Assembly: GCF_007004735.1 (NCBI RefSeq)
Contig: NZ_ML660182.1
Coordinates: forward strand, 738,130-802,129
Origin: Salinigranum halophilum
GTDB lineage: Archaea > Halobacteriota > Halobacteria > Halobacteriales > Haloferacaceae
Direction of reading: 5' to 3'
Length of the DNA stretch: 64,000 nucleotides
Shown here one piece after another: positions 4,030 to 31,762 of the stretch (the stretch's first letter is position 1; each line of letters starts with the position of its first letter). The notes under the pieces are model-generated. The model searched no databases and had not been told where the DNA came from. It saw nothing but the letters and a program-made list of their open reading frames with translations. Both the position numbers and the translations under genes were made by a program.

Positions 4030-4938
4030 CTAGTAGTGCCAGGGGAACTTTCGAAATTCAGGCTCGCGCTTCTCCAGGAAGGCATCTCTGCCCTCCTGGG
4101 CCTCGTCGGTCATGTACGCCAACCGCGTGGCCTCGCCCGCGAACACCTGTTGGCCGACCATCCCGTCGGTGTCGAGGTTGAACGCGTACTTGAGCATCCG
4201 AATCGCCGTCGGCGACTTCTTCGTAATCTCGTCGGCCCACGCCAGCGCCGTCTCCTCCAGTTCGTCGTGGTCCACGACTTCGTTCACCATCCCCATCTCG
4301 TGGGCTTCGGCGGCATCGTAGTCGCGCCCGAGGAAGAATATCTCGCGGGCCTTCTTCTGCCCGACCTGATGAGCGAGGTACGCCGAGCCGAATCCGCCGT
4401 CGAAGGAGGCGACGTCGGCGTCGGTCTGCTTGAACACGGCGTGCTCGCGCGAGGCGAGCGTGAGGTCACAGACCACGTGCAGCGAGTGACCGCCGCCGAC
4501 AGCCCACCCCGGGACCACGGCGATGACGGGTTTGGGCATGAACCGGATGAGTCGCTGTACCTCGAGGATGTGGAGTCGACCGACCTTCGGAGCCCCGTCG
4601 TCCGCGTCGCCCTGGGCGTCGTCGTCCTCGTACTCGTACCCCGACGCCCCCCGAATCGCCTGGTCGCCCCCGGACGAGAAGGCCCAACCGCCGTCTTTCT
4701 CCGAGGGGCCGTTGCCGGTGAGGAGCACGCAGCCGACCGCCGGGTCCTGCCGGGCGTGGTCGAGCGCGACGTACAGTTCGTCGACCGTCCGGGGCCTGAA
4801 GGCGTTTCGGACCGCCGGGCGGTCGAAGGCGATGCGGACCGCGGGCACGTCGGCGGCCCGGTGGTAGGTGACGTCGGTGAACTCCTCGGCCGCGTCGACT
4901 GGCTCCCACCGGTCGCCGTCGAAAATCTCAGAGACCAT
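4030..4938 (-). CDS. menB: 1,4-Dihydroxy-2-naphthoyl-CoA synthase
   Basis: MenB is the crotonase-fold enzyme that cyclises o-succinylbenzoyl-CoA to DHNA-CoA. The 302-residue product has the signatures FSSGGDQAIRG, the glycine-rich oxyanion segment GWAVGGGHSLHVVCDLTLAS, and SFDGGFGSAYLA, which separate MenB from ordinary enoyl-CoA hydratases. A stretch rich in Asp/Glu (EYEDDDAQGDADDGAP, about residue 100) is a haloarchaeal acidic insertion. The ATG at 4938 gives a normal-length protein. Substrate activation by MenE is needed upstream, and no menE is seen in this window. Confidence 0.94.
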   Translation of the reverse strand: MVSEIFDGDRWEPVDAAEEFTDVTYHRAADVPAVRIAFDRPAVRNAFRPRTVDELYVALDHARQDPAVGCVLLTGNGPSEKDGGWAFSSGGDQAIRGASGYEYEDDDAQGDADDGAPKVGRLHILEVQRLIRFMPKPVIAVVPGWAVGGGHSLHVVCDLTLASREHAVFKQTDADVASFDGGFGSAYLAHQVGQKKAREIFFLGRDYDAAEAHEMGMVNEVVDHDELEETALAWADEITKKSPTAIRMLKYAFNLDTDGMVGQQVFAGEATRLAYMTDEAQEGRDAFLEKREPEFRKFPWHY

Positions 4939-26332: not shown

Positions 26333-27574
26333 CTAGAGGTCGGCGAGCAGGTTCATCACGTATATCGTCCGGAGCATCGCCGCCGCGCCACCGCGGTCGA
26401 AGACGAGCCCGTCGGTCGAGCGGACGTGGTCGAGCACCGCCGCCGAGGAGTGTTCCGGCGCGGCGGCGATGCCGCACTCGTTCTCGGCGGCCCACTCCAT
26501 CACCCGGAGGTCGGACTTCGAGTCGCCCATCACGACCAGGAACGGGTCGTCGATGCCGAGGACCTCGAGCGCGGCCCCCACGCCGCGGGGCTTGTTGAGT
26601 TCCAGCGAGCCGACCTCGGCCGCGTCGGCGTGGTAGTAGGCGACGTCGACGCGCTCGAAGATGGCAGTCACGGCCTCGGGCACCTCGTCGGGTGCGCAGT
26701 CGACGGACGCGCCCTCGCTCTCGAACACCTGTTCGATTTCGGGGTCGGCGGCCGCGAAGTACGCCCGCGCCCAGTCGGAGCCACGCGTCGTCACCTCGTC
26801 GGTCTCGGCCGCGACGGCCTCGCCCAGGAGGTCGACGAGGTAGACCAGCCCGCGGTCGATGACGCGCTCTGCCTCGGGAGAGCCCACATCGAAGTTCGGT
26901 TTGAGCGTGACGTTGAACTCGTTACCCTGGAGGTGGATGCCGCGGGCGACGTCGTCCGGAGCCTCCGGGAGGACGCGCGAGCGTACCTCGTCGAAGACCG
27001 AGATCATCTCCTCGTCGAGTTCGTCGTAGAGGAGCCGTTTCGTCTGTGAGCCGTGGCCGGGCGTGAACACCCCCGTGCCGGTCTCGTAGACGATACTCAC
27101 GTCGCTCGAGTGGACGAGTTCGTTCCCGAGCCCCTGGATGAGAAACCCCTTGACGTTCTCCAGGGTCTGACCCGTGCAGATGACGATGGGGACGCCGGCC
27201 TCGTGGAACTCCGTGAGCGCGTGGAGGGTCTCGCGGGGGATCTCGTTGTCCGTCCCACCCGCCGAGCGGAGCGTCTCGTCGACGTCGAGGACGAGCACGT
27301 TCACCGCGCGTCCGTACTTCGAGTGGAGGTCGAGGCCGGTGAAGGCGTGGTCGCGGTCGGCCGTCGCGGCGATTTCGACGAGCGTCTCGCCGACGGCGAA
27401 CGAGTCGCGTACCTCCGCCTTCCGCGTGTCGAGTTCGGCCCGGGCGTCCTGCCAGTAGTCGAGGGCGACCCGCGAGTCGACGGCCGGGAAGACGTCGACG
27501 AACGTCTGGAGGTCCCGGATGGCGGCCGTGTCGAAGTCCTCGTAGAGCCGGTAGAGGAGGTCGTATCGTTCCAT
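26333..27574 (-). CDS. HAD-superfamily phosphatase with N-terminal extension
   Basis: 413 residues. HAD motif I is VLVLDVDETLRSAGG (nucleophile Asp near residue 95), motif II is VICTGQT (about 133), the lysine motif is in ELNKPRGVGAALEVLGI, and motif IV is LVVMGDSKSDLRVMEWA. The cap type and spacing fit the Cof/phosphoglycolate-phosphatase-like IIB group. The first 90 residues (helical, acidic) are an extra domain seen in haloarchaeal members. A sugar- or polyol-phosphate substrate is likely but unassigned. Confidence 0.85.
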   Translation of the reverse strand: MERYDLLYRLYEDFDTAAIRDLQTFVDVFPAVDSRVALDYWQDARAELDTRKAEVRDSFAVGETLVEIAATADRDHAFTGLDLHSKYGRAVNVLVLDVDETLRSAGGTDNEIPRETLHALTEFHEAGVPIVICTGQTLENVKGFLIQGLGNELVHSSDVSIVYETGTGVFTPGHGSQTKRLLYDELDEEMISVFDEVRSRVLPEAPDDVARGIHLQGNEFNVTLKPNFDVGSPEAERVIDRGLVYLVDLLGEAVAAETDEVTTRGSDWARAYFAAADPEIEQVFESEGASVDCAPDEVPEAVTAIFERVDVAYYHADAAEVGSLELNKPRGVGAALEVLGIDDPFLVVMGDSKSDLRVMEWAAENECGIAAAPEHSSAAVLDHVRSTDGLVFDRGGAAAMLRTIYVMNLLADL

Positions 27575-27681
27575 AGCTCGAAACGGACCGAGGAGGTATT
27601 AAAAACCGGTCGGTCCGACGGTCGGTGCGCCGCCGGAGACGCGGGGAAACCCTGATACGCCGCCTCGTCATACGCTCGGGC

Positions 27682-28125
27682 ATGGCAGACTGGACCGACC
27701 GTATCGTCGGCGACCGGATGACGGTCGACAGGGAGTTCAACGACCGCGTGATGGCCTCCGAGTTCGCGAGTCAGGAGTGGAGCCTCATCATGACTGCGAC
27801 GGAGTTCGAGATCGAGAACGCAGACGACCCCGAGCGGGCACGGATCGTCGCGAACACCGACAAACTCGAGGGGATGATGCCGCACATCGAGGAGGCGGGC
27901 AAGCGCCAGCAGTCGATGGCCGGCGGGGGTGGCCGTGACGACGGCGGGGGCGACAGCATCATCGATACGGTCAAAGGCGCGCTCGGACTCGGAAACGGGA
28001 GAGAGGACCACGACGCCAAACTCGCCGCTGCCGAGAAACTCGTCCAGGAGTACGCCGACGAACTCCAGTCCCACCTCGAATCGCGGGGGAAGTGGGAGCA
28101 GGTCCGACGGTCGTACGAGAGTTAA
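27682..28125 (+). CDS. Conserved haloarchaeal protein (DUF5799-like)
   Basis: 147 residues from ATG 27682 (MADWTDRIVGDRMTVDREFNDRV). I recall this opening as the haloarchaea-restricted DUF5799 group, with moderate confidence. It is predicted to be helix-rich, with a Gly/Asp linker (AGGGGRDDGGGD, about residues 92-103) separating two halves, and no membrane segment. Its stop codon TAA overlaps the convergent small gene by three or four bases. Function is unknown. Confidence 0.75.
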   Translation: MADWTDRIVGDRMTVDREFNDRVMASEFASQEWSLIMTATEFEIENADDPERARIVANTDKLEGMMPHIEEAGKRQQSMAGGGGRDDGGGDSIIDTVKGALGLGNGREDHDAKLAAAEKLVQEYADELQSHLESRGKWEQVRRSYES

Positions 28126-28271
28126 TACTCGTCGCCCGCGTGGAACAGCGTCATCTCGCTGGCCCGGTAGATGTTGATGAGTTCGTTGATTATCTCGTCG
28201 TACTCCTCGTCCTCGACACGGAGTCCGTCGAGTCGCTCCAGCGTCTCTTCGTCGACCTGTATCTGTGCCAT
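28122..28271 (-). CDS. Very small antitoxin-like protein
   Basis: 49 residues (MAQIQVDEETLERLDGLRVEDEEYDEIINELINIY...). The N-terminal strand and two helices resemble ribbon-helix-helix antitoxins or the haloarchaeal DUF7557 group. A TATA-like GGATTTAAGG (minus strand) lies about 25 bases before the ATG at 28271, supporting this start and leaderless expression. No toxin gene is adjacent. It is convergent with, and overlaps the stop of, the gene at 27682. Confidence 0.65.
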   Translation of the reverse strand: MAQIQVDEETLERLDGLRVEDEEYDEIINELINIYRASEMTLFHAGDEY

Positions 28272-28359: not shown

Positions 28360-28608
28360 CACTCGAGAACACAGTCGCTTCGACCGCGCGAACAGCCGCC
28401 CACCGGTCGCGTTCGACCGCTGTGCCGGTGGCGACGACGTCGGCGCTGGCGATGTCTTCTGCGGTCAGTTCGTTCTGTGGGCTCATCGACCCTCGCACCG
28501 CGCCTCGATGTCGTGGCCCCTCTCTCGAGTGGTCGTCTCGGCGTTCTCGGCGGCCATCTGGCTGTGCGCGATACCGGTCGAGCACGCGGTGCCTGCGACG
28601 ATGCTCAC
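28360..28608 (-). pseudogene. Frameshifted fructose-PTS EIIB remnant
   Basis: A GTG at 28608 overlaps the ptsI stop (GTGA), as in a coupled gene. Its frame reads VSIVAGTACSTGIAHSQMAAEN then TTTRERGHDIEARCEGR and stops at 28483. This matches the PTS EIIB (fructose) active-site loop C-P-T-G-I-A-H-T/S with the Pro changed to Ser. The expected continuation (MSPQNELTAEDIASADVV ... ERDRWAAV) appears in another frame from about 28493 to 28366 and then dissolves. I read this as a decayed EIIB. The alternative is a sequence error, but the missing C-terminus argues for real decay. Confidence 0.65.
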
Positions 28609-30323
28609 GGCGACTCCCCCTGCGACGTCAGTCGGTCGACTACTTGCTCTTTGGTGCTGGCGCTGGCGACGTGGGTGGCGAGTTCCCTCGCCTCGTCGGT
28701 GTCGACCGCCGTGACGCGCTGTTTCACCGCGGGGACGGTCACGGCGCTCATCGACAGTTCGTCGAGGCCCAGTCCGAGGAGGAGTTCGGTCAGGTCGGGG
28801 TCGCCGGCCATCTCGCCGCACATCCCGACCCAGCACTCTGTGCCCTCCGCGGCGCGGACGGTCTCTCGAATCGCACGGATGACTGCTGGCTGGCGGAAGT
28901 CGCGCAGTTCCGAGACACGTTCGTTCCCGCGTGCGGCGGCCATCACGTACTGTGCGAGGTCGTTCGTCCCGATGCTGAAGAAGTCGACCTCGCTCGCCAG
29001 GTCGGGGCCCATAAGCACCGCCGCGGGCGTCTCGATCATCACGCCGAACTCGGGAATCGCGTGGTCGACGCCCGCCTCGTCGAGCGCGGACGCGACCGCT
29101 TCGAGTCGTGTCCGGGCCGCACGGACCTCCTCGACCGTCGAGACGAGCGGGAGCATCACGGCCAGGTCGCCGGCCCCGTCGGCAGCCGCCCGCAACAGTG
29201 CGCGGAGCTGTGTCTCGAACAGGTCGGCGTCGTTTCCGAGCGACCGTCTGATACCCCTGTCTCCCAGGAAGGGGTTCTCCTCCTCGGGGAGGTCGAGGTA
29301 CGGGACGGGCTTGTCGCCACCGATGTCGAGCGTGCGGACGACGACCCGCCCGTCGGGGAACGCGTCGAGCGCGTCGCGGTAGGCCTCGTACTGCTCTGCT
29401 TCTCCCGGCGGCGCGTCCCGGTCGACGAAGAGGAACTCCGACCGATACAGCCCCACACCGTCGGCACCGCGCTCGACCGCGGCCTCGATTTCGGCCGGGC
29501 GACCGACGTTCGCGGCGACTTCGATCTCTCTCCCGTCGCTGGTCTCGACGGGGGCCTCGCGGACGGGCGCGTCGAGCCCGTCGCTCGCGCGCGCTCTCGT
29601 CTCCTCGGTCGGGTTCAGCACCACTTCGCCGGCGTCACCGTCGACGACGACTTCAGTCCCTTCGTCGACCTCGTACAGCCCCGCGCCGACTCCGACCACG
29701 GCAGGGAGGGCGAGCGAGCGGGCGAAGATGGCCGCGTGCGACGTGCGACCGCCCGTCGCGGTGACGAATCCCGCGACGACCGCCGGGTCGAGCTGTGCAG
29801 TGTCGGACGGGGTGAGCCGCTCGGCGAAGACGACGCTGCCCTCGGGGAGCGACCGGAGGTCGACCCGCTCGGCCCCAGTCAGGATGCGGAGCAGTCGGTC
29901 GCGCACGTCGCGGAGGTCGTCCGCGCGTTCTTTCATCCGCCCGTCCATCCCCTCGAACTGCTCGATGGGGCCGGCGAAGGCCGCCCGGACCGCGTGCGGG
30001 GCGGGCAAACCGTCGTCGGTGACGGCCGCCTCGACCCCGTCTTCGATTATCGGGTCCGAGAGGAACTGGAGGTGCGCACCGAACACTTCGGCTTCCTCCT
30101 CGCCGACATGCTCGCGGGTCTCTTCGCGCTCGCGTTCGAGTTCCGTGCGGGCGGTCTCGATGGCTTCTTCGAACCGTGCGAGTTCCGCCTTCGGGTCGAC
30201 GTCATCGGGTGGTTCGTCCAGGTCGACCGAGTCGTCGGGGCGGTACCACACGACGGTTCCGACCCCCGCGAGCGGTGTCGCGCCCTCGCCCTGAAGACGA
30301 CGGTCGACGGCGGGGCCACTCAT
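28605..30323 (-). CDS. ptsI: Phosphoenolpyruvate-protein phosphotransferase (PTS enzyme I)
   Basis: EI takes phosphate from PEP and passes it to HPr. The 572-residue product is full length. It has the phospho-His loop TATGGRTSHAAIFARSLALP (about residue 188), a PEP-binding barrel with RTLDIGGDKPVPYLDLPEEENPFLGDRGIR, and C-terminal GTECWVGMCGEMAGDP carrying the catalytic Cys. The start ATG at 30323 overlaps the upstream EIIA-like stop (ATGA). No HPr or EIIC gene is in the window and both neighbours look broken. Either this EI serves a distant PTS (for example dihydroxyacetone kinase) or it is on the way to loss. Confidence 0.93.
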   Translation of the reverse strand: MSGPAVDRRLQGEGATPLAGVGTVVWYRPDDSVDLDEPPDDVDPKAELARFEEAIETARTELEREREETREHVGEEEAEVFGAHLQFLSDPIIEDGVEAAVTDDGLPAPHAVRAAFAGPIEQFEGMDGRMKERADDLRDVRDRLLRILTGAERVDLRSLPEGSVVFAERLTPSDTAQLDPAVVAGFVTATGGRTSHAAIFARSLALPAVVGVGAGLYEVDEGTEVVVDGDAGEVVLNPTEETRARASDGLDAPVREAPVETSDGREIEVAANVGRPAEIEAAVERGADGVGLYRSEFLFVDRDAPPGEAEQYEAYRDALDAFPDGRVVVRTLDIGGDKPVPYLDLPEEENPFLGDRGIRRSLGNDADLFETQLRALLRAAADGAGDLAVMLPLVSTVEEVRAARTRLEAVASALDEAGVDHAIPEFGVMIETPAAVLMGPDLASEVDFFSIGTNDLAQYVMAAARGNERVSELRDFRQPAVIRAIRETVRAAEGTECWVGMCGEMAGDPDLTELLLGLGLDELSMSAVTVPAVKQRVTAVDTDEARELATHVASASTKEQVVDRLTSQGESP

Positions 30324-30484
30324 CGGACCGCCCCCGTGAGCGCCTCGAATTCGTCGAGGCGGCTCGTCTCGGTGGCCCCGTCGAGCAGGAACTCGGTGCG
30401 GGCGTCTCTCGGCGCGGGCGGTCGTTCGAGCGTTACCGGGTCGGGCGGGGTGAGTCGGTCGATGTCGGTGGAGTCGATGGTCAT
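30320..30484 (-). pseudogene. Truncated PTS EIIA-like remnant
   Basis: 54 residues from ATG 30484 (MTIDSTDIDRLTPPDPVTLERPPAPRDA...). The pattern of two short strands followed by a helix (TEFLLDGATETSRLDEFEALTGAV) resembles the first 50-55 residues of fructose-type EIIA. Translation stops where the rest of EIIA, including its phospho-His GIGIPHA motif, should follow. The stop overlaps the ptsI ATG (ATGA), so it could still drive coupled translation of ptsI. The EIIA identity is tentative; it may be a short leader ORF instead. Confidence 0.4.
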
Positions 30485-30781
30485 GAGAGGTCTGTGATGG
30501 GTGTCGGTCCGTTCGGTGAGTATAGTCGTCGCGGGGCGAGACAAAAAGTCCGCTCCCGGATATCGCAGGCCGCGGTGGCAACGACTCGCCGAGCGGTGAG
30601 CGTGCGTTCGAGGTCCCGGTTCCCTCTTCGAGGTCGTCCCTGCGGAGGGTCGTCGGCGACAACGACGCGGACGTGGACGTCGGCTGCGTCGAACCGCCCG
30701 GGTCTTGGCTGGTCTACCAGGACGTCGACTCCGCACGCCCGGTTCAGCCCGTGACTATCCACGAGAATCAGACGGCCGGCA

Positions 30782-31762
30782 CTAGTCGAGGCGGTCGACG
30801 ACTGCTGCGGTGACGTCCTCGGTCGAGGCGTCGCCGCCGAGGTCGGGCGTCCGCGGGCCGTCGGCGAGGACGTCCTCGACGGCGGTGTGGACGGCCTGTG
30901 ACTCCTCGTGGTGGCCGAGCGACTCTAAGAGCATCGCGGCGGAGAGGATGGTCGCCGAGGGGTTCGCGATGCCCTCGCCCGCGATGTCCGGGGCGCTCCC
31001 GTGGACGGGTTCGAAGAGGCCACGGGCGGGGCCGAGATTCGCCGAGGGGAGGAGGCCGAGCCCACCGACCAGGCCGGCAGCGAGGTCAGACAGCATGTCG
31101 CCCGCGAGGTTCGGACAGACGATGACGCCGTACTCCTCCGGGTGGAGACAGAGGTGCATCGCCAGCGCGTCCATCAGGGCGTCGTCGGTGTCGACACCGC
31201 GCTTGCGAGCGACGTCCTCGACGGCGTTCTTGAACCGACCGTCCGTCTCGCGCATCACGTTCGCCTTGTGGGCGACGGTGAAGCCGTCCCACGCGCCGTC
31301 GTCGACGTAGTCGCAGGCGAAGCGTGCGAGTCGACGCGAGGCCGAGTCGGTGACGACGCGCGTGAGCGTCGAGAGGTCCTCGGTCAACCGGTGTTCGTGA
31401 CCGCCGTAGACGCCCTCGGTGTTCTCGCGGAGGAACACCAGGTCGGTCTCGGGTTGGAGCGCGTCGACGCCGGGGTACGCCTTCGCCGGGCGGACGTTGA
31501 CGAACGAGTCCACCGCGTGTCGAAGCGGGATGATGACGTCGGCGGCCGTCTCACCGGCCGCTCCGAACAGCGTCGCGTCCGCGCTCGCCGCGAGGTCGAA
31601 CGTCTCGTCCGGCAGTGCCTCGCCCTCGCTCTCGAGCACGTGGTCGCCCGCGCGGGCCTCGACGAAGTCGAAGTCGCCGACGGTCTCGAGAACCTCGCGT
31701 GCGGCCGGCACCACTTCCTGTCCGATTCCGTCACCGGGAATGACGACGATCTCGTCGGTCAT
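30782..31762 (-). CDS. leuB: 3-Isopropylmalate dehydrogenase
   Basis: LeuB oxidatively decarboxylates 3-isopropylmalate in leucine synthesis. The 326-residue protein has the NAD-dependent beta-decarboxylating family signatures: [35 protein letters not shown] and [28 protein letters not shown] followed by [13 protein letters not shown]. Isocitrate dehydrogenase and homoisocitrate dehydrogenase are related, but the leuC/leuD neighbours support LeuB. It is separated from leuD by a convergent small gene, so it probably has its own promoter in the 190 bases upstream. Confidence 0.93.

Follow-up and report, generated by a model that had tools for sequence, protein, structure and literature searches.

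Beside leuB, Salinigranum halophilum carries an intact gene for PTS enzyme I (EI) between broken genes for EIIA and EIIB, which raises the question why the general donor should have been kept while the sugar-specific genes around it decayed. A first-pass annotation of the window, i.e. the whole stretch of 64,000 nucleotides that was analysed (contig NZ_ML660182.1, positions 738,130 to 802,129), had regarded this EI as an orphan, either repurposed or not yet lost. Our genome-wide analysis leads to a different answer: very probably the fructose PTS decayed in place and EI was kept as the sole donor for an HPr-DhaM branch that serves a dihydroxyacetone (DHA) kinase.

An intact ptsI among fructose PTS remnants

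The genome's only EI gene, ptsI (28605..30323, minus strand), encodes 572 amino acids. The first-pass annotation had called it intact, with its phospho-His loop, and this is borne out by the open reading frame, the domains and the alignment to solved EI structures. In profile searches the product showed the three-domain architecture of EI (PF05524, PF00391 and PF02896) above curated cut-offs and scored 520 bits against TIGR01417, the cut-off being 341.7. It could be aligned to 2hro and 2wqd across the phospho-His loop, GGRTSHAAIFARSL, and across the GTND and GMCGEMAGD motifs, and for the residues of all three regions we assume the roles that they have in EI. One other PF02896 match was found in the genome, in a frame of 784 amino acids that would appear to encode a PEP synthase-like protein rather than a second EI.

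For a comparison within the genus we used S. halophilum (G000) and three congeners, G195, G196 and G197. The dN/dS of ptsI, a measure that the first-pass annotation had proposed, was 0.144 against the nearest congener, G196 (first 470 codons), 0.176 against G195 and 0.202 against G197. This resembles leuB in the same pairs (0.15-0.17; 0.168 against G196), while dhaM gave 0.08-0.11 (0.100 against G196). Ordinary purifying selection acts on ptsI. In a tree of EI sequences the S. halophilum branch, with a length of 0.085 as compared to 0.073 for G196, is not markedly accelerated; the branch of G197 measures 0.17 versus 0.095 for G195, and there is a hint that EI may be relaxed in G197, but not in S. 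halophilum.

The gene that follows ptsI is a ptfB pseudogene (28361..28608, minus strand). Its GTG start at 28608 overlaps the ptsI stop, and its frame begins with VSIVAGTACSTGIAHSQ and ends at a stop at 28483-28485. Haloarchaeal EIIB is matched at up to 66% over the first 39 residues, after which homology resumes in another frame, with the C-terminal block LFARxKRL still recognisable near 28370; only the first 32 positions match PF02302. In the alignment to G196 a gap of 1 nt is seen, a large internal part is deleted, and the original stop no longer exists. An EIIB active-site loop followed by a frameshift and degeneration, as originally described, is thus confirmed by both the second-frame homology and the G196 alignment.

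On the other side, an open frame of 54 codons (30320..30484, minus strand) is what is left of ptfA. In a tblastn comparison to intact ptfA it aligned with the N-terminal end of EIIA from haloarchaea (45.7% over 46 amino acids, E 1e-8), and its DNA is 80.7% identical over 135 nt to codons 1-45 of G196 ptfA. As its last codons (about five) fit the end of ptfA, the stump represents an internally deleted ptfA. The GIGIPHAKT region of the intact gene, which we take to be the phospho-His region of EIIA, is missing, and the earlier description of a truncated EIIA that lacks the phospho-His ahead of ptsI is therefore correct. We also considered ptsH1 as a source of the tail of this frame and rejected it: in the congeners ptfA is followed by ptsI with no ptsH in between, and the tail agrees with the ptfA end. 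Further upstream, a scrap of 46 nt (30651..30696, minus strand) is left of glpR, from its 3' end; it is 80% identical to the end of the G196 gene, with an E value of 5e-8 that applies within the small locus comparison.

The remnants are framed by syntenic anchors, namely leuB upstream (30782..31762, minus strand) and, downstream, a small conserved acidic ORF (28122..28271, minus), a conserved ORF of unknown function (27646..28125, plus) and a HAD-IIB-like ORF (26333..27574, minus). What the window retains is leuB, the glpR scrap, the ptfA stump, ptsI, the ptfB pseudogene and the usual downstream ORFs. In intact relatives the order is leuB-glpR-pfkB-ptfC-ptfA-ptsH1-ptsI-ptfB, as evidenced by mapped pieces of G149, G092, G126 and Haloferax, with leuB itself observed in the first three; in G149 and G092 the cluster is then followed by the same small ORF as the S. 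halophilum ptfB pseudogene.

The congeners are found at other stages. In G195 the locus reads leuB-glpR-ptfA-ptsI-ptfB, and pfkB-ptfC-HPr-ptfB lies about 1.5 Mb away. In G196 it reads leuB-glpR-ptfC-ptfA-ptsI-ptfB with a frameshifted ptsI, and pfkB-ptfC-ptfA-HPr lies elsewhere. G197 retains leuB and ptsI with a gutted ptfA between them, and its genome gave no PF02378 match to EIIC. A tree of the flanking genes pairs S. halophilum with G196, and G197 with G195, with a bootstrap of 100%. In none of the four genus members does a ptsH separate ptfA from ptsI; the local HPr was thus probably lost before the other genes. Note that the two parts of the fructose PTS in G195 are complementary, the first (L148 3507-7329) lacking ptfC and HPr, the second (L152 7338-10419) ptfA and ptsI. 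The same genome has an additional divergent HPr (L153 6083-6349), 47% identical to the dha HPr, with a weak EIIA-like match on the opposite strand.

Synteny with the intact clusters and the congeners at different stages support in-place decay of a leuB-linked fructose PTS, as had been suggested at first reading; EIIC, fructose-1-phosphate kinase, glpR, EIIA, EIIB and the local HPr are all missing or broken at this locus. Genome-wide, the EIIC that a functional fructose PTS requires gave no PF02378 match at E<=1, an absence that is not absolute, since this profile overlooks some divergent EIIC (genus g29). Likewise, no PF00359 match to an intact EIIA_2 was found at E<=1, and the search for an intact EIIB with PF02302 returned the remnant and two matches below the cut-off. 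The first of the ptfB lesions concerns one base only and might in itself be taken for an error of sequencing or assembly in a working fructose cluster. The deletions in ptfA and ptfB are large, however, little of glpR and nothing of ptfC is left, EIIC and EIIA_2 have no match elsewhere in the genome, and G197 has decayed differently at the same place. These several large lesions rule out an assembly error as the entire cause, and that such an error disrupted a working cluster is extremely improbable. We recognised no description of the decay of this cluster in the literature searched, which comprised passages of a few papers, and do not claim that it is unpublished.

The probable remaining client of EI

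A genome-wide search for ptsH, EIIC and dhaM, as proposed in the first-pass annotation, found HPr and dhaM, but no EIIC. The statement that HPr and EIIC are absent thus stands for EIIC, while for HPr it is true of the window only: the sole HPr gene of the genome (G000:C1:817477-817719) lies 15 kb past the window end. Together with dhaK, dhaL and dhaM it is found about 49-52 kb from ptsI, and all four genes are complete, scoring above curated NCBIfam cut-offs, with the HPr of the haloarchaeal type. EI, HPr and EIIA-man occur once each, and the gene set of a PEP-dependent DHA kinase PTS, DhaK, DhaL, DhaM, HPr and EI, is present in full. Alignment to the solved DhaM 3ct6 located the region VVVSHS, whose histidine is presumably the phospho-His of DhaM. 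HPr-dhaM-dhaL-dhaK with glpK and glpA are kept in all four genus members, dhaL of G196 being split by a frameshift.

Since HPr and dhaKLM need an EI and ptsI is the only one, the designation as an orphan was wrong; by gene content, the DHA kinase PTS is a set elsewhere in the genome that can use this EI. Phosphate would pass from PEP to EI, on to the HPr encoded with dhaKLM and then to DhaM, which would recharge the nucleotide on DhaL, and DhaL would phosphorylate the dihydroxyacetone bound to DhaK. We infer this flow from the protein families; directly shown are the genes present, their synteny, the lesions and the selection. The same relay is described in passages of PMC3863723, according to which the main DHA route in Haloferax volcanii is glycerol kinase and not DHA kinase. 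The selection on the DHA branch may therefore be modest, and its strength is uncertain. On this reading EI is maintained, under ordinary selection, as the sole donor that the remaining PTS branch has.

It may still be asked whether EI is a functionless late survivor of a PTS that is decaying as a whole, as one might gather from the broken genes adjoining it and from the ptsI of G196, which is frameshifted in a G-run. We consider this very unlikely, as 572 codons have stayed open with the catalytic motifs retained, dN/dS is close to that of leuB, the branch shows no marked acceleration and the user, HPr-DhaM, is intact, while the adjacent ptfA stump has already reached a dN/dS of 0.80. The shift in G196 may moreover be a sequencing error, given that its dhaL is also shifted in a G-run. 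Just as doubtful is the proposal that EI was repurposed as a regulator or for a partner outside the known PTS families. It can draw on two genomes of the order that keep leuB-HPr-EI with no match to EIIC, DhaM or DhaK; S. halophilum, however, has an HPr and a DhaM of the standard kind, so that no new partner is needed. With HPr and dhaKLM kept and a sole EI to serve them, neither half of the original alternative, repurposed or not yet lost, is upheld. As a separate observation, the frameshifts of G196 ptsI (L150 ~4210-4240) and dhaL (L156 ~9400) represent either sequencing errors or parallel loss.

The EIIA stump as a possible leader

The stop codon of the ptfA stump overlaps the start of ptsI as ATGA. 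The dN/dS of the stump is 0.80 against G196 and 0.36 against G195, as compared to 0.20 between two intact ptfA, all over short stretches, and selection on its amino acid sequence is relaxed. A TATA-like sequence (30518..30524, minus strand), 40 nt before the ATG of the stump, is a candidate promoter identified by eye only; a scan for sigma-70-type promoters, not made for archaea, gave no match.

As an addition to the retention of EI for the DHA branch, it is possible, if less than probable, that selection keeps the stump as a translated leader from which ribosomes reinitiate at ptsI over the ATGA. The gutted ptfA genes of S. halophilum and G197 retain different parts, codons 21-45 being present in the former only and codons 95-152 in the latter only. 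Neither can thus be derived from the other, and the gene was gutted twice independently, in line with the fully supported quartet of the flanking genes; yet both stumps have kept an open frame whose stop forms the ATGA with the start of ptsI. Translation coupling by overlapping stop-start pairs is known in haloarchaea, and passages of PMC6728339 report strict coupling of overlapping gene pairs in 13 of 14 cases tested in Haloferax volcanii and E. coli. On the other hand, a random deletion preserves the ATGA overlap in 33% of simulated cases and two retained overlaps are expected by chance 1 time in 9, which renders the case suggestive only. The relaxed amino acid sequence of the stump also speaks against a leader, as does the strong GGAGGTGA before ptsI in G197, where ptsI may consequently not need coupling. 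More tentative still is the full scenario in which the fructose PTS was discarded, EI was kept for the DHA kinase and delivering ribosomes to ptsI became the sole job of an in-frame EIIA stump, at least twice in the genus.

EI across the order and known systems

Among 195 genomes of the order, EI was found in 87, HPr in 86, EIIC in 47 and EIIA-man in 66, after weak rows had been dropped for G037 (EIIC), G003 and G020 (EIIA-man, just over the family cut-off) and G021 (HPr). Dak1 was found in 67 genomes, including a fragment in G021. EI is accompanied by both EIIC and EIIA-man in 33 genomes, by EIIC only in 14, by EIIA-man only in 32 and by neither in 8. EIIC was in no case found without EI, and a single genome, G096, which is 61% complete, has EIIA-man without EI. 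In the order, EI nearly always accompanies EIIC or DhaM. The eight genomes with neither comprise five of genus g29 (G097, G118, G142, G181 and G186), of which the two inspected, G097 and G118, contain a divergent ptfC, further G157, with an EI fragment only, and finally G115 and G138. The latter two keep leuB-HPr-EI (L157 5218-8291 and L158 5165-8291) and gave no match for EIIC (PF02378), DhaM (PF03610) or DhaK (PF02733), which indicates that EI can persist without either known user and makes them real candidates for an orphan general PTS.

EI adjoins leuB in 11 of 36 mapped EI loci, which were chosen for having no EIIC match, Haloprofundus marisrubri being judged from its 15.7-kb locus alone. 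On an EI tree of 108 rows (81 labelled, 27 unlabelled) made by a quick method, the presence of EIIC changes 13 times, at least 8 of these forced by well supported branches, as compared to 25.7 in shuffles; counts of this sort do not distinguish losses from gains. An internal deletion like that of the S. halophilum ptfB occurs in ptfB of G086, and ptfC is broken in G036. We also noted dhaKLM directly after HPr-EI in G005 (L163), G061 (L171) and G139 (L180, beside leuB), followed in G005 and G139 by the usual downstream ORFs, an arrangement that looks like an in-place replacement of fructose genes by DHA genes. In G021, a genome with no EI match, dhaK and HPr fragments adjoin (G021:C17:21051-21445), and here it is the DHA branch that decays instead.

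The locus illustrates how a phosphorelay in common use can limit gene loss: the genes specific to the sugar may decay while a distant client holds the general donor in place. It also cautions against calling a single EI on a contig or in a window an orphan before the whole genome has been searched for HPr and DhaM. With its recurrence in haloarchaea, the pattern offers a tractable natural series of decay stages.

The published archaeal DHA-only PTS is that of Haloquadratum walsbyi (passages of PMC1544339 and PMC2841640). As described there (PMC1544339), it is a PEP-dependent PTS for a cytosolic DHA kinase, with no membrane EII, and going by its genes alone S. halophilum would have the same. 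Unlike in Haloquadratum, EI of S. halophilum is located at the old fructose locus with relics of EIIA, EIIB and glpR, and HPr is encoded with dhaKLM. With the fructose cluster of Haloferax, HVO_1494-1499 in the passages of PMC2841640, the locus shares an orthologous ptsI and the gene order, as well as the leuB neighbourhood of the Haloferax-like G126, but it lacks ptfC, pfkB, fba and ptsH1 and its EIIA and EIIB are broken. The retained branch corresponds to the Haloferax DHA PTS operon (HVO_1543-1546, same source) in that dhaKLM come with their own HPr, the latter seen in G126; Haloferax, unlike S. halophilum, retains its fructose PTS besides. The PTS of S. halophilum is a known kind of system, caught mid-decay.
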